The notes under the pieces: generated by a model
Database searches by the model: none
The model's input: the letters and a program-made list of their open reading frames with translations, nothing else
What the model was told of the DNA's origin: nothing
DNA from: Bacteroidota bacterium
Lineage (GTDB): Bacteria; Bacteroidota; Bacteroidia; B-17B0; Aurantibacillaceae
Assembly (NCBI GenBank): GCA_030684395.1
Contig: JAUXTT010000001.1
Coordinates: forward strand, 1-64,000
Direction of reading: 5' to 3'
Length of the DNA stretch: 64,000 nucleotides
Position numbers and translations under genes: made by a program
In this document: piece after piece, positions 39,711-52,400 of the stretch
Layout of the letters: every line of letters begins with the position of its first letter
Numbering within the stretch: position 1 is the first letter of the stretch

Positions 39711-40459
39711 TAGAAATTAAAAATCTAAATAAAGCCTTTGGCGACCGTAAGGTAGTAAATGATGTTTCCTTTGTGTTTGAAACAGGAAAAACCAATTTGG
39801 TTATTGGAGAAAGTGGCTCAGGTAAAACTACCATTTTAAAAATGATGGTTGGCTTACATGTTCCGGATAGTGGAGATGTGGAGTATGATGGAAGATCTTT
39901 TACTCATAGTTCCGAAAAAGAAAAGCAGGAAGTAAGAAAAGAAATAGGAATGCTTTTTCAGGGAGGGGCATTATTTGATTCGCTTACTATAGAACAAAAC
40001 GTTGCATTTCCTTTAGATATGTTTACCGAAATGAGTTCTGAAGAAAAAACGGAACGTGTAAATTTCTGTTTACAAAAAGTAAATCTCGAAGGAAGAAATA
40101 AGTTGTATCCGGCCGAACTATCAGGCGGAATGAAAAAAAGGGCTGCTTTGGCAAGGGCAATAGCCAATAATCCTAAATACTTGTTTTGTGATGAGCCTAA
40201 TTCGGGACTTGATCCAAAAACCTCCCTTGTGATTGATGCTTTGATAAAAGATGTAACACTGGAATTCGGAATGACCACCGTAGTTATTACACATGACATG
40301 AATTCGGTAATGGAAATTGGCCAGAATATTTTATTTCTGTACAAAGGAAATATGTGGTGGCAGGGAAACAATAAGGAGATTCTTACAACCGACAATCAGG
40401 AAATTCTTGATTTCGTTTACGCTTCGGAATTTTTGAAACAGTTAAAGCCAAGGAAGTAA
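39707..40459 (+). CDS. mlaF: MlaF-family ABC transporter ATP-binding protein (GTG start)
   Basis: Walker A GESGSGKT, signature LSGGMKKR, Walker B YLFCDEPNSGLDP; overlaps mlaE by 4 bp. Confidence 0.9.
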   Translation: MIEIKNLNKAFGDRKVVNDVSFVFETGKTNLVIGESGSGKTTILKMMVGLHVPDSGDVEYDGRSFTHSSEKEKQEVRKEIGMLFQGGALFDSLTIEQNVAFPLDMFTEMSSEEKTERVNFCLQKVNLEGRNKLYPAELSGGMKKRAALARAIANNPKYLFCDEPNSGLDPKTSLVIDALIKDVTLEFGMTTVVITHDMNSVMEIGQNILFLYKGNMWWQGNNKEILTTDNQEILDFVYASEFLKQLKPRK

Positions 40460-42172
40460 TACCTTGTTATATCCAATTAATCTTGTATTTTTGCAATCCA
40501 CAATTCGGAGACTTGTCAGAGTGGTCGAACGAGCAAGCCTGGAAAGTTTGTATACGGGTAACTGTATCGAGGGTTCGAATCCCTCAGTCTCCGCTGAAAG
40601 GGACTTAGGCTCAAAAAGAGACCTAAGTCCCTTTTTTATTATAGCAAAATCGCCCGTGTGTCGGGCGATTTCAGCAATAATCTCATTTAAATCCGGAGTT
40701 CGAAATGCCCCCTTTTCCTTGTCATATACCAAACCGTTAGGAAAGATTATATTTTGCAGTTTCTCCTTGAGGCTAATACTGCCCTCTACCCAAATTTTAC
40801 GCAGGTTTCGGCACAATAGTGAGGCTTCATTTAGCATTTCTTTTAGGTTCGAAATGTAAATCCCGCAACCATCGATTTCCTTCTGCAAATTCGCAAGATC
40901 CGCCATGTATTTTGCTAAGAAACGGTCGTAGGTTTCTTTTGGCATTTCTTCTTTAATAAAGTGTTTCTCTTCAAGTTTTTCAATGTTCCTTTTTAGCTCC
41001 GCCATTCGGTTTTTAAGCTCTTTTTCCTTCTCTACGTTGCCTTTGTTCAGTTCGTAATAAGTGCTTTCTAATTCAATTAAAATAGCTTCATTCAAATCCT
41101 CTTTAATTTGGTAGTTCTCCAAGTCGGTGGCGAATAATTCATGCATCGACTTGGCGCTTTTGTTACACTTGCATCCGTTTGTTCGGCATTTATAGTAATA
41201 GAGATTCTTCTTTTTTACTATATAACCCGTATAAGGCTGATCGCAATCGGCACATTTCACAAATACTTTCAAAGGAAGATTAATGTTTTCTAATTTATGC
41301 GGTACTCCATATTTAGTAGATGAAGAAACAATATCGTTCACTTTCATAAACTCTTCTTTTGAAATCATTTTTTCATGAACACCATCCACAATTTTTCCAT
41401 TCAGCATTCCGTGAGAAATTAAACCGCAGTAAAAAGGGTTGATAAAAATTTTATGCAATTGTTGTTTGTACATTTTCACTCCTTGTGCCTGAAGTTTCAA
41501 AATAATTTCTTCATTCTTCAAGCCTTGTATTTTCCATTCCCAAGCTTTCTTTATTTTCTTACCATCTGCATTCACAATTATTTTGCGTTCACCGTTCGAC
41601 CGTACAATATCATAACCTTGCGGTGGCTTCACTACCCAAATACCTTTTTCAAACTTCGCTTTCATTCCTGCCATCGCAACTTGTTTGCGTTGATCGTTAT
41701 CCCATCGCCCAAACAATAATTGCATATCATGAAACAAAACTCCGCTAGCATTAGAAGTATCTATCGGTTCAGTTACTGCTTTAATATGTACGCCATGCTT
41801 TTCTCTTAATTCATCGGCAATAGAAATTGCTTTCCCTCCAGTCCTGCTGAAGCGAGTCATTTTGTAAACTAAGATAGTTCCTATTTTACCTTTGCTTTGC
41901 CGAATAAAACTAAGCATACTCTGAAATTCTTTTCTCGCATCGGTTTTAGCACTTTCATAAGTGTCACCAAAACGAGATACAATTATTAAATTGTTTCTTG
42001 CCGCATATTCTTCAATGGCTTTCCGTTGCGTTTCCAAGGAATCGTTCTTATCGAATTGCCCTTTGCCGGAAACCCTTGTGTACATAACAACTAAATTGCC
42101 TTCCACTTTTTTAACTGTAGTTGTACTAAACCTCCCAAACTTTAATTCAATTAGTTTTTCATCTGTTGTCAT
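40442..42172 (-). CDS. Large serine recombinase (site-specific integrase)
   Basis: Resolvase domain [48 protein letters not shown]; zinc-ribbon [11 protein letters not shown]...CRTNGCKC; coiled-coil C-terminus. The last ~50 codons are antisense tRNA-Ser/flank. Confidence 0.9.
40464..40493 (+). promoter_or_regulatory. Putative Bacteroidetes promoter of tRNA-Ser
   Basis: TTGT (40464) and TATTTTTG (TAnnTTTG, 40486-40493) with ~18 bp spacing, ending 13 bp before the tRNA. Confidence 0.5.
40507..40593 (+). tRNA. tRNA-Ser(GGA)
   Basis: Acceptor GGAGACT/AGTCTCC + G discriminator; anticodon stem CAAGC/GTTTG with loop CTGGAAA (anticodon GGA); long variable arm TATACGGGTAACTGTATC; GGTTCGAATCC T arm. 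Confidence 0.95.
40574..40595. repeat. Left direct repeat (candidate attL core)
   Basis: TTCGAATCCCTCAGTCTCCGCT, identical to 62067-62088. Confidence 0.85.
40600..40637 (+). terminator. Rho-independent terminator of tRNA-Ser
   Basis: GGGACTTAGG...CCTAAGTCCC followed by TTTTTT. Confidence 0.85.
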
Positions 42173-42830: not shown

Positions 42831-43013
42831 TGTTGGCGATCTGTTTCTTACTTTCCTGTTCATCTTCTTTTTTGTTTTTACACGACAAAGTAAAGTCAAG
42901 TCATTTTGGTGCTTTACCGGTTTGGGAAGATTTTTCCATATTCTTTCAGATTTTTTCGTGTATGGCAGTTAACGGCACGTTTGGGCAGGTAAATTTTGAG
43001 TCTGAAAACACTT

Positions 43014-43130
43014 CGGGATTATCGGGGGATTATCCGGGGGGAATCGGGGGCGATTACGGGATGATTGTGGAAATGCTGCATTTTATCGGGGATTACCGAA
43101 AAATACTCCGGGGGGATTGCGGGGGGATTA
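43014..43130 (+). repeat. G-run repeat array (GGGGATTA-like units), G-quadruplex-prone
   Basis: Runs GGG/GGGGG/GGGGGG/GGGGG/GGG at 43015-43060 separated by 4-7 nt, then GGGG (43088), GGGGGG (43110), GGGGGG (43121). Confidence 0.75.
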
Positions 43131-43281: not shown

Positions 43282-44466
43282 TTATGCTCTTGAAATTTCA
43301 AGTTCATTTAGAATAAATTTTGAAACCTTCTTGAAACCTGATTCGGAACTATAACCACCAAAAGTTCCACCAACCAACCAATCGTCACTTGTTATTTTGC
43401 TCTCATTTATTTTCTCGTCAAAAAGTTGTAAAGACTCCTTATTTAAGCCATGAATATTTGAATTAACTTTTCCACTAACAATTGATCCAAGAATACCATT
43501 AATAGCTTTCGCTCCCATAGTTCTTTGAATATAATATTGTGGGTTATAATAAATTTTCTTTGATTCATAGAAAAGGTCAATTTGAGTTTCACCTTCCTTG
43601 AAACAATATTTCCATTTATTTTTTACTGTTTTATCCCAAGCCTTGTGAATGAATTCCGCGATCTTTTCCCCTGAATCCATTGAATACTTTACAAGCCTTT
43701 CACCTTCCAAAGCTTTGTATTTCTCATGATCATTAATTTTAAGGTAAGAATCAACAACTGACCCAATAGATTCTCGAAAGGCATTTACCCCAATAATTCC
43801 AATAACTTGTTCATCATGAATTCCAAATTTCACGGCATTATTCCAAACACTATCTTTAATTTTTTCATTTAAACAAAACGACCCTTGAATAGAAATATGT
43901 TCGTTTATTTCTTTTTCCTTAAAATCCTTTTCCAATATTCGATAATTAAATCTTGCCAATTCAATTAGGTCAACCTTTAATCGCTTACCCTTTGAATTTA
44001 TGTCATAAAATATTTCCATTTCTATGGAACGCTTACTTGGTTTAGTCACCAATATAATGACATTAAAAAGGAAGTTCCGTAATTCTGATTTTTGTTTAAT
44101 GGCCTCACGCATCGCAATTATTCTATGCTGACCATCCACAATTCTAAATATTTTTCTTTTGCTCGGAAGTTTTGAAGAATCAATAAAAAATTGACCAGAT
44201 TTGTTTCCTAAAAAGCTTTCAGCATCTTTTTCATCAACAGCCAATACAATAGACGTAGGAAATAAAAAATCTTTGTTTTTAAGAATATAATCCTTAATTC
44301 TATTATAATGGGATGGCTCCGGTTCCCTTTGATAACCGTCAGGAGTTTGCCCATAAATTAAAACCTGACTATTGTTATCTATGATTTCATGAGGCAATAT
44401 CGCTGATAAATAACGATAATTAGTTTGCTTAAAATCAAAAGTCGAATAATTTATTATTTTGCTCAT
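43282..44466 (-). CDS. DGQHR-domain protein (DndB-like)
   Basis: 394 aa; FRIVDGQHRIIAMREA motif; GYQREPEPSHYNRIKDYI. Confidence 0.75.
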   Translation of the reverse strand: MSKIINYSTFDFKQTNYRYLSAILPHEIIDNNSQVLIYGQTPDGYQREPEPSHYNRIKDYILKNKDFLFPTSIVLAVDEKDAESFLGNKSGQFFIDSSKLPSKRKIFRIVDGQHRIIAMREAIKQKSELRNFLFNVIILVTKPSKRSIEMEIFYDINSKGKRLKVDLIELARFNYRILEKDFKEKEINEHISIQGSFCLNEKIKDSVWNNAVKFGIHDEQVIGIIGVNAFRESIGSVVDSYLKINDHEKYKALEGERLVKYSMDSGEKIAEFIHKAWDKTVKNKWKYCFKEGETQIDLFYESKKIYYNPQYYIQRTMGAKAINGILGSIVSGKVNSNIHGLNKESLQLFDEKINESKITSDDWLVGGTFGGYSSESGFKKVSKFILNELEISRA

Positions 44467-44474
44467 TTAAATTA

Positions 44475-45962
44475 CTATTTTAATATTGTTATAATATCTT
44501 GAATAAAATCTCTTTCTTTCTTAAAATTGATTTTTTCTTTGAGTTTAATTGCATTTAAAAGATTAGATAGCACTTCTCTGCATAGTTTGATTTCAGAATC
44601 ATTTAGACCCTCATTACTTATTTGATCGGCATAATTACCTTCTAAACGAATATTCAAAAATAAAAGATCAAGGAATTGTGGGAACCGTTTGTTCTTTATA
44701 TCGATAATTTCTAATTCACCATTTACAAATATCATAAAGTTATAATGCTTTATAAAACTACTTGGTGACAGGAATATGTTTGGAGAAGGCTGGTATTTCA
44801 ATAATTGTGAAATGTAATTTTCTATTTGATCATGTATTTCTTTATCGTTTAACCCTGGGAATTCAATTTTTATTTTAGAATGTAAAAAATCAAACAATAG
44901 AGAGAAGTAGCTTTGTAACTTAGAATCTATATTTTCTTTGGTTATTTTTGCAGGTGTCCATAGCCACCCAAAAACAACAGATTCAAAGATCTTTAAATCA
45001 TACGACTTATTTCTTATTTTTATATACTGCTTATTAAGTTCCTTATTGGCTTTATGGGTGAAGTGTTTAATTTGTAAATCCCTTGCAACAATTCTTTTGT
45101 TAGAGTGAATATAAAATAAGGCCTCAGAAAAACTATCAATTTTATAGCCAATACCTCCAAGTTTTTCAGTTATTTTTTTCGAGTAGTTGTCATCAAACCA
45201 AGACAGAAACGTTATCGCCTTTGAGTTCGATTTGAATTCTTTGTTAGCATTCCTTACACTTACTAAAAAATCATCAATTTGAAAAAGTAGTTTTCCAATA
45301 TGATTCATTGTGGCTTGAGTTGTTTCCCTTACTGGAGAAACGAAATAATCTTTATAAAATATGGAATGTTCCATGTCACCCCAAGCAGAAACAATTTTGC
45401 TTTTTATTTGTAACTCAAAAGCTTGGTCATTTGAAATGGTTCCTTTTATTTTATAAATTTCTAAGCCATTTTTCATTATAGTAGGTTGTGCGGCTAAATC
45501 CTTTTCATCCAAAACAATATGTTGAGACTTAAGAATAGCTTCATTGCTTCTTAGAATTGAAAGAATTTTTTTGCAATCCTGATTGAGATCTGTCAAAATT
45601 TTAACTCCAATAATATCATCACATTTTTTAAAGGCAAGCTTTATTAGATTTTTTTGCCGTTTAACATCCGCGCCTGATTTAAACTTAAAATCTTTAAAAT
45701 GGGTTTGCAATAAATTTGAACGGTAAAATTTCTCCTTCAAACTGTCGGGTTCCTTTATTCGATGTACTAATGAAAAATATTTCAAATCTCTAACACTATT
45801 TTTGGAAATCAGACCATATTCTTCACCCTTATCAATAATTAAAGTTTTTAATTTAATCTCAATACTCTTCGCATCAATTTCAAGTTCGTCCAAGAAATTT
45901 TTGTCTGAGTAGATTTCTACCAGTTCGTTAATTAATATTTTTTCTGTCTGAACTAAATCCAT
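44475..45962 (-). CDS. RelA/SpoT-fold nucleotidyltransferase-like protein
   Basis: 495 aa; RIKEPDSLKEKF, CDDIIGVKIL, FELQIKSKIVSAWGDMEHSIFYKD resemble (p)ppGpp synthetase motifs. Confidence 0.7.
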   Translation of the reverse strand: MDLVQTEKILINELVEIYSDKNFLDELEIDAKSIEIKLKTLIIDKGEEYGLISKNSVRDLKYFSLVHRIKEPDSLKEKFYRSNLLQTHFKDFKFKSGADVKRQKNLIKLAFKKCDDIIGVKILTDLNQDCKKILSILRSNEAILKSQHIVLDEKDLAAQPTIMKNGLEIYKIKGTISNDQAFELQIKSKIVSAWGDMEHSIFYKDYFVSPVRETTQATMNHIGKLLFQIDDFLVSVRNANKEFKSNSKAITFLSWFDDNYSKKITEKLGGIGYKIDSFSEALFYIHSNKRIVARDLQIKHFTHKANKELNKQYIKIRNKSYDLKIFESVVFGWLWTPAKITKENIDSKLQSYFSLLFDFLHSKIKIEFPGLNDKEIHDQIENYISQLLKYQPSPNIFLSPSSFIKHYNFMIFVNGELEIIDIKNKRFPQFLDLLFLNIRLEGNYADQISNEGLNDSEIKLCREVLSNLLNAIKLKEKINFKKERDFIQDIITILK

Positions 45963-45973
45963 AAATGGTCGAA

Positions 45974-46048
45974 TTAATTACATACTGGGGTCAATTCCTC
46001 TTTTGTGAAATGTTCTAGTATATTCTCTTTATATTCTGTAAGGTTCAT
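45974..46048 (-). CDS. Possible microORF (24 aa)
   Basis: MNLTEYKENILEHFTKEELTPVCN, in the gap between two operon genes. Confidence 0.25.
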   Translation of the reverse strand: MNLTEYKENILEHFTKEELTPVCN

Positions 46049-46052
46049 TTTT

Positions 46053-46136
46053 TTAGTAGTATTCTTTTAATTCCCGAAAAGCCCCTGCTTTAGCAAAATT
46101 ACAATTTAAAACCTTGCCACCAAAAGGAGTTCTCAT
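46053..46136 (-). CDS. Possible microORF (27 aa)
   Basis: MRTPFGGKVLNCNFAKAGAFRELKEYY; ATG overlaps the stop of the upstream gene (TAATG). Confidence 0.3.
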   Translation of the reverse strand: MRTPFGGKVLNCNFAKAGAFRELKEYY

Positions 46137-47287
46137 TAATCGAGCTCTAAAGTATTGAGGCAATAAGTTCTTTTTGCGAAAAGCGATGTAAAATTTTGAC
46201 TATCTATTAACCCGTTTTTATTTTTTAAATTTATTTCTTCTTCAAAATATTTTAAATCCGCGGTGTTGGGAATTTCTCCGCAGTCCATTTTTTGAAAAAT
46301 CAGCATTGAAAGTTTTCTTTGTAACTCTTTTTTTGATTTAAAATATTCTTTTATTAATTCTTGAAAAGAAAGATCGTTATAATTTCTAAAATAATCAATT
46401 GAATCATGTTTTGCATTATTAAACCTATCGACTTGGTTTTTATAACCCTGAGAAGCATTAATACTGCTTTTTTCAAAATTTTCTCTCGTTATTAAAAAAG
46501 GAGGTAAAGAATATTCACAAAATATATCTTTAAGGTTAGCTTCTAGAATTAAAAAAACAGCATTAATATTAACTGAAAATTCGCTACTCTTTAATTCCAT
46601 CAATGCCGATAGTTTATTTAACAAAAATATTCTTTTGATGTCATCTGAGGATTTGGAAAAGTACATGTTCCAATATTTTGTATAATGAAAAAGTGTAATT
46701 GCAATTTCATTTTCACTTTTATTTTCAAAAACCTTTTGTTCAATCCAATTACAAAGTTTATGAATGGTTTGATGTCTTGTTTTATTTTCACTATTCCAGT
46801 CATTCAAAGTTAATTGTATAGTTTTTTCAAAAAAAGAGAATAAAAAATCACTAATTTTAATATTGACTTTACTTGTATTCTTTTCCTTAATAAAGTTAAG
46901 TAAACCATATTGATCAATGAATTTATCAGGTTCACTTTCCAATATTACTTCTCTTAAATGATAAAATAACTCATCGGTACCATTTTCAAAATATATCGAT
47001 TTAACGATATTTTCGAATTCAAAATCTTTAAGGAGATTCAAAACCTCTATATAATCTGATTTTTTTTGACTAACTATTTTATTGTTTTCAGTAAATAAGT
47101 CAGCGTTGGTATTAGAATTTGAAATACCAATTTGAATAGGAGCTTTAAAATAATCTTTTAATCTCTTTAATGTTTCGTCTTTTAAATATTTATTATAATG
47201 CTCTACCCTTGCATCATGGGACATTCCTTTCATATCACTATGAAATTTTATTCGAACAAAATTTTCGTTTTTTATTAAAAAACTCAT
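46136..47287 (-). CDS. Operon-embedded hypothetical protein
   Basis: 383 aa, overlaps the drmB-like gene by 4 bp; no PLD HxK motif seen. Confidence 0.7.
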   Translation of the reverse strand: MSFLIKNENFVRIKFHSDMKGMSHDARVEHYNKYLKDETLKRLKDYFKAPIQIGISNSNTNADLFTENNKIVSQKKSDYIEVLNLLKDFEFENIVKSIYFENGTDELFYHLREVILESEPDKFIDQYGLLNFIKEKNTSKVNIKISDFLFSFFEKTIQLTLNDWNSENKTRHQTIHKLCNWIEQKVFENKSENEIAITLFHYTKYWNMYFSKSSDDIKRIFLLNKLSALMELKSSEFSVNINAVFLILEANLKDIFCEYSLPPFLITRENFEKSSINASQGYKNQVDRFNNAKHDSIDYFRNYNDLSFQELIKEYFKSKKELQRKLSMLIFQKMDCGEIPNTADLKYFEEEINLKNKNGLIDSQNFTSLFAKRTYCLNTLELD

Positions 47288-49398
47288 TGTATTACTTCTT
47301 TAAAAAATCCCTTATTTTCATCAACAAGAATTCGTCTATCTAAATATATATTTCTATGCTCACACGAAGTTTCACTCACAAGACTACATGAAAAGCAGGA
47401 AGCGAAATTTAATTCAAATAACCCTTGTCCCTCAGATTCCCAACATAATGGGTCACTGTTACAGATAGTCGCTCTTCTTAATGCGCTCTGAATTAAACTC
47501 AATAAGTTCTTTGGCCTAGTTTGTGCGATTAGCCCTCCCATACTTCCTTCTGCCCCTTCTGCCGTATATATCATGCATCCGTACATTTTATATTTTGCGT
47601 CATTTGAAACATAAATTCTTTCAGATAATGAAGCCGTTGGGTAACCGCATTTAAACTCTAATTCTCTCATAATAAGATGAGCAAAAGTATGAACAATATA
47701 TAACTGCCAATTGTTCTCCAATCCATATTTGATAGCGCCTTCTGAAAAAGGGTCACTATTTTTAGATAGTTTTTTTAAATTCTCATTCAATAAAACAATG
47801 GCGTCAGAATTAGCAAATTCATTTATTAGTTCTTCTTTAAAAGAAAAAAAGATCCCTTCTCCGTAATTTTCAACAACTGGATAAGCCTCTACGCTATTTT
47901 TTTGTTTACTACTAAAAATATTTTTTGAACTGATATTATCTGCATCAGAATCCACAGGCACAACTCTAGAAAAATCAAGTTGTGCTGAAGTTATTTTCAT
48001 GTTATCTATTCTAAGTATTCTTGAAAAATACTTTTCTATATTAGAACCGTTAATATTAATAGTAACGTCTTTTACCTTTAAGTGCTCATTGACTTTATCA
48101 ATATTTATTTCTTCCTCTCCCTTTAAAGCAAGTGCTCTATATTCTTCAAACCGATAAAGTACGTCCTTTTCTGAATCATGAATTACTTCAAGTGGAGGGT
48201 TATTTTGAATTTCTGCTTTTAAAGAAGTCATCATACTATTTATTCTCATTGCTTCTTCAAAGTTTTTATCATCCATAGCTAATTCCAATTCTTTCTCAAG
48301 CCCATTCAATTTTAATGTTTTTTCATCCAAGAATAGTTCGTCCGGCATATAAATACTTGAAAGCATTCTAGAATAATAAAGATTATTTCCAGTTGTTAGT
48401 GCTACCTTCATTGCTTTAGTTGACAAACATGTTTCAAAAGGGGGCATTTGATTTCTTGATCCTGGATTTCCAGAATGATACTTTAGTTCCCCATTGTTAG
48501 ATGTAATTGCTTCCCATGGTTTATGTCCGGGACATTTTATTTTCACACTCATTAACCCCTTTAATGAAGTCTGTCTTCCACAGTTTTCACATTTCAACCA
48601 CTTTCCATCAAAACCCGAAGCATTAGCAGTGCTGGAAGTAATTTTTATTTGTGTCTTTGATTTATCATCGGTGCCACAACAATACTGCGATTTAAATAAC
48701 TCTATTGGTTGTTCAGAATTAATTTCCATTGGAGAATCTGTTCTCCATCGTAAATACTTAGACCATGGAAAATCGCTTATATGACCATGTTCACAGATTA
48801 ATACAATATTATCCTGTACTAAATTCTTTAAATAACCTTTTTCCGTTTTATACTTAGGTGGGAAAAATCGAGCAGCAGATTTATACTCATCCTCATCTGC
48901 TTTTTTATCTGATTTAATCCAATCTTTATACCATTCCTTATATGATTTGTAATGATGGCTACTATCAGCGAATATCTTTGGCATAAATGAGCTATTGATT
49001 GCTAATTCATTACCATTATTTTTTATTTTATTAGAAAAATCCTGTATGGTTATATCTGGTATTAACACCAAATATTTCAATTCTGTTAATCCTTTTCTGT
49101 TAATTAATGATTTGAGTAGTCTAGTGTCGTTGGAAATACCAATACCTCCATTTTCAGATCTTCTTGCATGTTCAAAAACATATTTTTTTATTTCTTTCTC
49201 CTTGACTCCTGTTTCTATTGCGGACTTTTGAATATCAAGTATTTTTTTTAAGAAACCCCACTCCTCAATACATGAAACAATTATACTTCCATATGCTGTA
49301 TGTACTATTGAGCCGGGGCCTCCATATGCAGATAGAAGTTTAAATTTACTAATGGCTTCGTTTGCTTGAGTATTATCAAAATATTGTTTTGCTGCCAT
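47284..49398 (-). CDS. drmB: DrmB-like DUF1998-domain protein
   Basis: 704 aa; LLSAYGGPGSIVHTAYGSIIV N-terminus; Cys clusters (CENCGRQ); C-terminal EGAEGSMGGLIAQTRP...CWESEGQG...CFSCSLVSETSCEHRN. Confidence 0.78.
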   Translation of the reverse strand: MAAKQYFDNTQANEAISKFKLLSAYGGPGSIVHTAYGSIIVSCIEEWGFLKKILDIQKSAIETGVKEKEIKKYVFEHARRSENGGIGISNDTRLLKSLINRKGLTELKYLVLIPDITIQDFSNKIKNNGNELAINSSFMPKIFADSSHHYKSYKEWYKDWIKSDKKADEDEYKSAARFFPPKYKTEKGYLKNLVQDNIVLICEHGHISDFPWSKYLRWRTDSPMEINSEQPIELFKSQYCCGTDDKSKTQIKITSSTANASGFDGKWLKCENCGRQTSLKGLMSVKIKCPGHKPWEAITSNNGELKYHSGNPGSRNQMPPFETCLSTKAMKVALTTGNNLYYSRMLSSIYMPDELFLDEKTLKLNGLEKELELAMDDKNFEEAMRINSMMTSLKAEIQNNPPLEVIHDSEKDVLYRFEEYRALALKGEEEINIDKVNEHLKVKDVTININGSNIEKYFSRILRIDNMKITSAQLDFSRVVPVDSDADNISSKNIFSSKQKNSVEAYPVVENYGEGIFFSFKEELINEFANSDAIVLLNENLKKLSKNSDPFSEGAIKYGLENNWQLYIVHTFAHLIMRELEFKCGYPTASLSERIYVSNDAKYKMYGCMIYTAEGAEGSMGGLIAQTRPKNLLSLIQSALRRATICNSDPLCWESEGQGLFELNFASCFSCSLVSETSCEHRNIYLDRRILVDENKGFFKEVIQ

Positions 49399-49402
49399 AA
49401 CT

Positions 49403-52400
49403 TTATTGTTGCACTGTTTTAATAACTACTGATGGATCTATTTCTCTTAAAGAATAACCAACTTTCCAATGAGTTGGATAATTATTATCGCTTGAAGTAA
49501 TAAACAAGGAATTTTGCTTCACGTCTTTTCTATACAATAATTCAGGCATTGGCTCACTTCCTTGTAATCTTTTTATCCAATAATCTAAAAGCATTTCAAC
49601 CTTATGATTGAGGTCAAGTAATTCCTCGTTTGAAATAATTCCATCAACATTTGATTCTACACTACTAGTTCGACTTTGCAAATAAGTATTTAGCTTATTT
49701 GCATTCGTTTCAATTTCAACAATTTCAGCAGTAATTAATTTTTTGATTTGCTGAATTTTACTGTCATCTATATCTGATGCGTCCGCATTGTTCATTAATT
49801 CAAGAGTACTATTATGCCTTATCATTACAGATAAAAACATTGCTAAATACCGCTCCATTGCTTTACTTGCAAATGGTGTCACTGAGATGGGCTCCACATA
49901 ACTATAAAATTTCTCATGAAATTCTTTGAATTTTTGATAATGGGAGATATCTCTAGATCTGAATGGATGATGGACAGTAAAAACAATGCCTTCTTTACTT
50001 CTCGCAACCCTACTTGATGCCTGAATATATTCAGCAATATTTCTAGGCATTGAACTTATTATCATAGTATTGAACCTAGAGACATCAATACCAACCGAAA
50101 TCATGTTTGTTGAAATCACAAACTCAGGAGGATTATTTGAATTCAATTTAAATTTCGTTCCGTCCTTTGAAATTAAGCTCCACTTTTTTTCAATGCTAGA
50201 CAAGTTAGATTTTACATTTTCACCTGTCAACCTACCAGTAAGTTCAGAGTAGTCAATTAAACTTTCATTCCTTATCAGTTTATCTAGAAAACTCCAAAGA
50301 ACAGTATTTTTTGTAATAAAATTTACATCCCCTGGCAAATAATGACTTAACTGGGATTGCGTCTTACCTACATCTTTTAAACTATTGAAATAGGATAAAA
50401 CTGTATGGTAATAATCAAATGCTTCCTGATGTTCTTTTAATAACTCTGGTTTTTCAAAAATCTCGTCATTTGTATAAGTTGCCTTTAAATATTTTAACCT
50501 GTGTGCAAGAGCAATAGAAGCAATCCTTAATTGCATCCAAACTTGCGTCTTTCCAACCGGTAGAATACCAATATATTTTCTGTTCGCTAAATATTCATTA
50601 ATATTCTCTTCATTTCTTTCATAATATGCAAAAAATGAATCGTCAGATAAAATTCCTTGTTTCGGAAATATTTCAGACCGCCTATTAAATAATGCAAATA
50701 TTTGTTTGTCAGTATTTCTCGTTGTTGCTGTAGAAGTAACTATTTTGGGTTTAATATTATTTTCTGTGCATAAATAATCGATACTCTTTTCAAATAGACC
50801 TACGGCTGACCCTAATGGACCTAACAATAAATGCAATTCATCTTGGATTATTAGTTCAGGAGGCAAAGTATCATAATTGTAGCCTTTACCAAACAATCTC
50901 CTGGAGTCTTTATTTGCTTCGGATTTTGAGGTTGATACATTGTTGGCTAAAGCAGCAAATTTATCTACCGTACCAAATAGCAAGGTTGGGGGAAACTTAT
51001 ATATATCGTCATCAAATAACTTAAAAGGTAAGCTGTAATTATTTGCTGCCCTATTATTATCACCCATACCTTTGAAAGTGCATGATGAATTATTGCAACA
51101 AATGTTTAATTGATCATCTTGTCCGTAAATCATCTTTCCTTTTGAACTTGAAGTAGCTACATTGCTTAAATCTTTGTCGATGAATAAATCACTACCACAC
51201 CAAGGACATTCAGTAAAAGGTAAATTAGTGCTAACCTTTTTTTCGTTTTGGACAAATTGAGCTATTTTCTCAAGTTCCTTTTCCATACTTGTATCATTTG
51301 GATTACCTGAGCCTTTCCATTGATTTGGCAACGAACCGGAACCAACAAATAATCCAATAGTAATTCTTCCCTCTCCAAGTTTACAAGAATGAGGTATTGT
51401 AAATTTATCTTTACGAATAGCTTCCAATGCACAAATTAACATAGTTGCCCTTTGGAACTGTTGCAATGTTAATAATCTTAATGTATAACGCATTAATACA
51501 GTTGTACCATTTGCTCTTGCTCCTTTTGTAAACCTCCTATATCCTATTGTAAATGCTATAATCCCTAAGTAGGCTTCTGTTTTACCACCACCGGTTGGAA
51601 ACCAAACTAAATCTGCAATTTCATTTCTTTCCGGCCATCCTTTAGAAAAAATATTCTCTACCGTTTTATCATCAATATCAGGTCGTACAAACGCATCGAT
51701 ATTTAGTAAAATAAATGCAATTTGAAATGACCGCCATTTATAATCTTTTTGAGTCCCATCACTATTTTTACCTAGATCGACGTTTTTATAAAACTCTTCT
51801 GTATTTGAATTAAGAACAAATGGTTTATTTATACTATGATGTAATTGCATAAACATTGCTGTATTCATCAATCGAAACGCAGCCATTGCTTTAGAGTCCT
51901 TACTTAGCAACGTAATATTTCTAACTAATCTAATCTGATCTTTATTACATGCCAATAGTTGCTTATTTAATAACACCCTCTCTTCACTCTTGAGTAAATT
52001 ATCCTTTTGAAGTTCTATCTTTTTCTCCTCTATCCAAATTTTATACTCATTTACAAAATCTTTCAATCCACCTAAAACAACATCATCCTTTATCTCGGAT
52101 AAAGTTGAAAGATACCGCATAGACAAAATAGAGTCGTTTTTAAGTCTAGGAACAATAGTATTATCTACTATTTTGCTAGGTTTAAAATCCACTTTAGGCG
52201 TTTCTTGCTCAGGCAGAAATTCTGTGGCAATGAATTTTAATTTATTGTTTTCACCCCAATTTACAGAGGTATTGTAGCCCTCTCCAAAATCATGGTAGTT
52301 TCTGTAGAGTAATTTATTGAAGTTATCCTCCTCATCAAAATCCAATAATTGTGGTGGATTGTATTGTTTTAGAGTCTTCTCTTTAGTCTCATTAATTTTT

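Follow-up and report, generated by a model that had tools for sequence, protein, structure and literature searches.

The question raised by this locus is whether a protein resembling the (p)ppGpp synthetases, whose gene follows a DNA-defence operon, is an alarmone-type effector of that operon or part of something else. The gene lies in a window of 64,000 nucleotides from a Bacteroidota bacterium (the window being the whole stretch of DNA analysed here), and the original prediction had proposed a divergent alarmone synthetase or other nucleotidyltransferase effector, embedded in the operon and possibly released when its DISARM-like machinery is inhibited. The gene and its main features, together with the basis of each assignment, are the following:

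44475..45962, minus strand: RelA/SpoT-fold protein of 495 aa with an ATG start, opening gene of a two-gene cassette that is completed by the gene of a DGQHR-domain protein (PF04607 match and AF2 model).
45720..45761, minus strand: ATP-donor motif R68-I-K70-EPD-S74-LKE-K78-FY-R81, that is, RIKEPDSLKEKFYR, residues 68-81 (homologue alignment and FaRel2 spacing).
45615..45617, minus strand: catalytic Asp D116, within DDIIGVK(IL), invariant among homologues.
45450..45488, minus strand: rebuilt G-loop QPTIMKNGLEIYK, residues 159-171, in the place of ..GYRSxH (aligned to RelP QHPKENGYRSLH; without Tyr in 16 of 16 homologues).
45351..45419, minus strand: FELQIKSKIVSAWGDMEHSIFYK, residues 182-204, carrying the catalytic Glu E183 (homologue alignment).
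44481..45329, minus strand: C-terminal all-helical region, residues 212-494 (AF2 secondary structure), poorly conserved and variable among homologues.

The Pfam family RelA_SpoT (PF04607) matches residues 67-205 with 41 bits (E = 2.5e-10), above the Pfam cut-off of 27 bits, so that the motif resemblance to the (p)ppGpp synthetase fold noticed originally is not due to chance, and the motifs quoted at that time lie at the expected places. The structure prediction proposed as a check was run and points the same way: the AF2 model of the RelA-like protein, which like that of its DGQHR partner is a monomer built on a shallow alignment (13 and 12 sequences, respectively), has a mean pLDDT of 80 and a pTM of 0.51, with pLDDT values above 85 over most of the first 200 residues, and its top matches in the PDB are RelP and RelQ (E about 1e-5, TM by target 0.6-0.7). 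The synthetase fold is therefore predicted, and the outcome that would have spoken against the prediction, a model lacking it, did not occur. The Pfam score, the predicted fold, the ATP motif RxKxxxSxxxK and the catalytic D and E place the protein in the RelA_SpoT superfamily, where it forms with its RelA-like homologues one clade of the tree (support 100/100). The host genome also encodes a separate long RelA/SpoT protein.

The donor side of the active site looks intact. R68, K70, S74 and K78 are unchanged in 13 aligned homologues, and the spacing of R68/K70/S74/K78/R81 is the same as that of the FaRel2 ATP residues R64/K66/S70/K74/R77 (PMC11782079). D116 and E183 occupy the positions of the catalytic acidic residues of the synthetases, and E183, Q185, K187, W194, H199, Y203 and K204 are invariant in the aligned homologues; the ATP-site residues, D116 and E183 are kept in proteins with only 20-52% identity to that of the window.

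The acceptor side is different. The alignment of the family profile with Staphylococcus aureus RelP (PDB 6EWZ) sets RelP QHPKENGYRSLH over QPTIMKNGLEIYK, with Y replaced by L167, S by I169 and H by K171, and places NGLEIYKIKG at the G-loop, which bears out the earlier remark that a canonical YxSxH G-loop is missing. The tyrosine of this motif occurs in none of the 16 family members, which carry L (9), H (2) or S, R, N, K and F (one each) at its position and retain the Asn-Gly and a subsequent Lys/Arg; the QIRT motif has become QIKS in the family. Among 27 other Bacteroidota RelA_SpoT proteins taken as controls, 23 show YxSxH, one YRGIH and three, from one bacterial family, GWxA[LI]K. This last motif marks the G-loop of a second divergent RelA-like class of 357-366 aa, present in one bacterial family (L078, L079 and L080, from genomes G006, G001 and G016), in which the serine of the ATP motif is changed to E (RVKAEEEIWNKV).

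Enzymes with the RelA/SpoT fold pyrophosphorylate guanosine or adenosine nucleotides as well as tRNA ends, and to our knowledge the G-loop tyrosine is used in each of the characterised cases discussed here. FaRel2-Y128F is catalytically compromised, the mutants PhRel2 Y143F and FaRel Y175F having been used likewise (PMC11782079), and phage protection by CapRel is lost in Y155A (PMC9712102). Since the family lacks this tyrosine, whose change to Phe compromises FaRel2 and whose loss abolishes CapRel protection, and since the donor and catalytic residues are invariant, a changed acceptor would account for the family better than canonical (p)ppGpp synthesis does, and the enzyme may also be catalytically dead. 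Canonical toxSAS activity would be less likely for the same protein, because a residue needed by CapRel and FaRel2 is absent from all 16 homologues. An unusual toxSAS could still be imagined, in which a tRNA pyrophosphokinase would act on the 3′-CCA end, with Lys171 and the N-terminal helices holding A76 instead of the tyrosine and the DGQHR protein as antitoxin. The fold and the donor-site spacing shared with FaRel2 agree with this idea, as do the helices that the AF2 model places ahead of the synthetase core, similar to those of FaRel2, whose N terminus anchors the tRNA (PMC11782079), but the tyrosine mutants of FaRel2 and CapRel and the lack of Tyr in every homologue make it unlikely. A synthetase domain without pyrophosphate transfer, which would sense or bind ATP or an alarmone and leave the role of active enzyme or nuclease regulator to the DGQHR protein, seems more doubtful still: the loss of the acceptor-stacking residue and the change from QIRT to QIKS would fit, but R68, K70, S74, K78, D116 and E183 are invariant in very divergent homologues, and an inactive enzyme should have lost at least the D or the E in some of them.

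The second gene of the cassette has these features:

43282..44466, minus strand: DGQHR-domain protein of 394 aa, DndB/DpdB-like, ParB superfamily, 8 nt downstream of the RelA-like gene (PF14072, TIGR03187).
44122..44136, minus strand: DGQHR motif, residues 111-115, invariant in 12 partners.
44326-44337, minus strand: GYQR motif, residues 44-47, invariant in 12 partners.

This partner reaches 65.7 bits with PF14072 and 82 bits with TIGR03187 (cut-off 58.85), and stays far below the equivalog cut-offs of DndB (26 bits versus 328) and DpdB (44 versus 300); no companion dnd or dpd genes were found beside the cassette among the neighbouring genes in the window. It also matches GmrSD_N weakly. A sequence search of the PDB gave chance matches only, and the comparison of its model with solved structures a weak ParB-N match (best PDB hit, E 0.024), the ParB fold being thus a putative assignment by sequence families. 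In the literature, DpdB figures as a ParB-like ATPase, and DndB is presented as a negative regulator that belongs to the ParB superfamily (PMC12839542). Regarding the control of the RelA-like protein, its modelled C-terminal region of ~280 aa could possibly act as a sensor, the DGQHR protein being the likelier regulator. Directly downstream of the DGQHR gene, positions 43010-43130 hold 11-nt-like units (GGGATTATCGG with its variants) in an array that is G-rich in the plus strand and gives no Rfam match at the gathering score.

The association of both genes is a tight one. The DGQHR gene lies directly downstream of the RelA-like gene, in constant order, in 14 of 14 uninterrupted cassettes, with a spacing from -29 to +13 nt (13 cassettes measured, two similar Lactococcus copies counted once). 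The matrix of distances for one protein is correlated with that for the other at r = 0.966 (Mantel p = 1e-4), a value to which host relatedness contributes. Among Bacteroidota, the RelA-like query was found in 3 of 398 genomes and the DGQHR profile in 3 of 299, these being the same three genomes, and a search of viral contigs with DGQHR as the sole query recovered two more RelA-like partners. A dedicated and conserved adjoining partner, as expected of a toxSAS, is therefore provided by the DGQHR gene, with the exception of a distant homologue from Acetoanaerobium (L004, with Phe in its G-loop), whose record shows no DGQHR partner. More distant DGQHR proteins of viral contigs adjoin other genes, indicating that DGQHR proteins have other partners as well. 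Another conserved trio, formed by a Dam-like DNA methylase, a small predicted membrane protein and a distant DGQHR protein, was seen in viral contigs (L022, L023 and L024).

Cassette loci were detected in Polaribacter, Flavobacterium, Chryseobacterium, Chitinophagaceae and metagenome contigs, in three IMG/VR contigs and in the Lactococcus plasmids pUCCL630B and pLLNCDO702C, with RelA-like homologues of 382-542 aa; some of these loci are on chromosomes of Bacteroidota. The Lactococcus plasmids are conjugative and mobilizable, and carry the cassette near an abortive-infection gene, ABC-three-component genes and the LlaJI restriction-modification system. Two loci are labelled as Arthrobacter (L013, 36% G+C, which may be a contaminant) and Burkholderiales (L012, a metagenome bin with 30% G+C), phylum labels that are not relied on here; in the former (L013:6413-9325), the cassette is just downstream of a restriction-like gene, that of a PLD-helicase-DUF3427 protein. 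The INPHARED phage records gave no match to the RelA-like or DGQHR proteins of the window or to a prophage-type RelA-like protein, and the samples of actinomycete and gammaproteobacterial-class genomes contained no full-length members beyond the seed genomes, apart from which a single short hit (G668, L029) was obtained. The RelA-like proteins have no match among the models of PADLOC 2.0.0. The RelA-DGQHR pair was not found in the papers covered on DGQHR, DndB/SpoT, toxSAS/ParB and DISARM/RelA, and the words RelA, SpoT and DndB are absent from a YprA-helicase survey of DISARM relatives. Provisionally, the pair can be regarded as a previously uncatalogued two-gene mobile cassette.

The operon that precedes the cassette is composed of the following elements:

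57729..59450, minus strand: C5-cytosine methyltransferase, DrmMII-like (PF00145, 142 bits; PADLOC MTase_II and DrmMII).
56058..57725, minus strand: NERD nuclease-helicase protein (PF08378).
53713..56067, minus strand: 784-aa protein without a convincing Pfam, PADLOC or NCBIfam match.
49403..53713, minus strand: DrmA homologue, helicase (PADLOC DrmA, E 9e-175).
47284..49398, minus strand: DrmB homologue (PADLOC DrmB, E 2.7e-59).
46136..47287, minus strand: 383-aa protein between drmB and the cassette, without a convincing Pfam, PADLOC or NCBIfam match.
45963..46135, minus strand: gap of 173 bp between this operon and the cassette (from the sequence), the upstream genes abutting or overlapping each other.
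46094..46124, minus strand: Bacteroidota-type promoter TTTG-N19-TAATTTTG ahead of the cassette (pattern scan; chance P about 0.007 in 173 bp).

PADLOC detects here both DrmA and DrmB of DISARM, and no PLD or DrmC match was found among the neighbouring proteins scanned; DrmC is often missing from DISARM and dispensable (PMC9142583). Upstream of the operon there is an XRE-like helix-turn-helix regulator (59501-59776), and the opposite strand shows a TTTG-N-TAATTTTG pattern (59733-59765). On the same far side, the gene at 59796-60923 has a 39%-identical homologue (L007:2622-3260) at ~7 kb from the cassette of a Chitinophagaceae bin.

Whether the cassette belongs to this operon can be judged by comparison with other genomes. 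Outside the window, the cassette follows the same DISARM operon only in Flavobacterium tructae, where contig C85 (homologue of the 784-aa protein, DrmA, DrmB and homologue of the 383-aa protein) overlaps by 95 nt with contig C100 (end of the 383-aa gene and RelA-like gene), and where, as we infer, the DGQHR gene at the start of a third contig adjoins the RelA-like one. The identities between both species are similar for DrmA (54%), DrmB (55%) and the RelA-like protein (52%), which points to an old shared arrangement. In favour of the RelA-like protein as the abortive effector arm of a DISARM subtype, released upon DISARM inhibition, stand precisely this common drmA-drmB-383aa context and the parallel divergence. 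However, the RelA-like gene is missing from 17 of 19 genomes with DrmA and is therefore not a regular DISARM component. In G053 and G376, which hold the two next-closest DISARM operons, the genes extend from the NERD-helicase to DrmB and no further, with neither the 383-aa gene, present in F. tructae, nor the cassette. All the other cassettes are without DISARM at their loci, and the seven genomes searched gave no DrmA match. In the operon of G376, the end of a methyltransferase is visible ahead of the NERD-helicase, and in both operons proteins of ~830 aa occupy the position of the 784-aa gene.

The 173-bp gap speaks in the same direction. The pattern TTTG-N19-TAATTTTG, which we take to be the Bacteroidota promoter consensus, suggests that the cassette likely has its own promoter. 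The pattern recurs upstream of only one other cassette locus (L009), and nothing in common was detected when inverted repeats shared upstream of the cassettes, in the manner of a DndB-like operator, were sought. Two short ORFs of 27 aa (its start overlapping the preceding stop) and 24 aa, which look like remnants, occupy positions 45985-46137, and in F. tructae the gap ahead of the RelA-like gene is only about 44 nt. Given the gap with its promoter consensus and the DISARM operons devoid of a cassette, the latter is best regarded as a module of its own, placed behind DISARM as an optional addition. The effector arm of DISARM becomes by this evidence highly improbable, and with it the proposed release upon inhibition of the DISARM-like machinery, as the near-constant neighbour of the RelA-like gene is the DGQHR gene, which the original prediction had not linked to it. 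What stands of that prediction is a divergent protein of RelA/SpoT fold, pyrophosphotransferase-like, whose donor site is intact and whose acceptor site is altered, next to true DrmA and DrmB homologues; its embedding in the operon is reduced to a distal position after the gap, and its belonging to DISARM finds no support.

Operon and cassette share, in any case, a larger unit with the following marks:

40442..42172, minus strand: large serine recombinase (PF00239, PF07508).
40574..40598, plus strand: 25-nt direct repeat, 3′ end of tRNA-Ser(GGA), at one island end.
62067..62091, plus strand: second copy of this repeat, identical in 24 of 25 nt, at the other island end.

These repeats enclose the recombinase, the DISARM-like operon and the cassette in about 21.5 kb, a region that fits a mobile defence island. 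The recombinase ORF crosses the tRNA gene in antisense direction, and excision would therefore alter the C-terminus of the recombinase.

As a whole, the explanation that we favour, with a probability somewhat above one half (about 0.55), is an autonomous mobile cassette of effector and DGQHR protein, placed behind a DISARM-type operon, in which a silent pyrophosphotransferase not directed to GTP/GDP would be freed on an infection cue and would stop growth or phage production. With ATP as the donor, the RelA-like protein would pyrophosphorylate an acceptor other than GTP or GDP, an activity that would harm the cell or the growth of the phage. The DGQHR protein, with a putative nucleotide-binding fold of the ParB/Srx type (as DpdB, DndB and, more distantly, GmrSD), would hold the enzyme silent until a cue frees it; plausible cues are phage or modified DNA and a change in the nucleotide pool. 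The cassette would then constitute a toxin-antitoxin-like abortive-infection unit, which may back up the neighbouring DISARM without depending on it. Pairing and co-inheritance would look the same whether the DGQHR protein inhibits the enzyme, activates it or forms a complex with it, and the order of effector followed by regulator differs from that usual in toxin-antitoxin systems, where the antitoxin comes first. More tentatively, the cassette could represent a new class of phage-defence module, with the DGQHR protein as a ParB-superfamily NTPase that recognises DNA or a modification of it and gates the RelA-fold enzyme, whose acceptor would be new, neither GTP/GDP nor the tRNA CCA end, but for example a nucleic-acid end, another metabolite or a protein.

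That the donor chemistry is retained in a conserved family whose acceptor site has been rebuilt suggests a new acceptor, and a partner from the superfamily of DNA-modification systems means that the pair may link the sensing of DNA or nucleotides to growth arrest. Having two genes only, and a copy on plasmids of dairy Lactococcus, for which phage assays are routine, the cassette is a cheap and well-defined candidate for cloning.

A last point concerns the known systems. Judged by sequence, the RelA-like family is toxSAS-like in its build, but lacks the toxSAS G-loop and has a different partner. With FaRel2, PhRel2 and CapRel it would share the synthetase fold, the spacing of the ATP-donor motif, the catalytic D and E, a second protein or domain as partner and mobile or phage-related loci, whereas the absence of the YxSxH tyrosine, the length of 382-542 aa, the helical C-terminal region and a DGQHR partner, where FaRel2 and CapRel have antitoxins of the pZFD type, set it apart. 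The housekeeping small alarmone synthetases RelQ and RelP are its best matches in sequence and structure, but they carry GYRSxH and QIRT in chains of about half the length (209-255 aa), in contrast to the NGxx[IF]x[KR] and QIKS of the family. The partner resembles DndB and DpdB of the Dnd and Dpd DNA-modification systems in passing the PF14072/TIGR03187 cut-offs and keeping the DGQHR and GYQR motifs, and departs from them in its equivalog scores and in the lack of dnd or dpd genes beside it. The neighbouring operon is like DISARM in its DrmA, DrmB and C5-methyltransferase, and unlike it in having no DrmC model match, a NERD-helicase, the 784-aa protein and an optional RelA-DGQHR cassette. Finally, in GmrSD, BrxU and SspE, where a DUF262 NTPase gates an HNH nuclease, a related ParB-like NTPase part is also tied to an effector, whereas the effector of the cassette would be pyrophosphotransferase-like, encoded by a separate gene, and not a nuclease.
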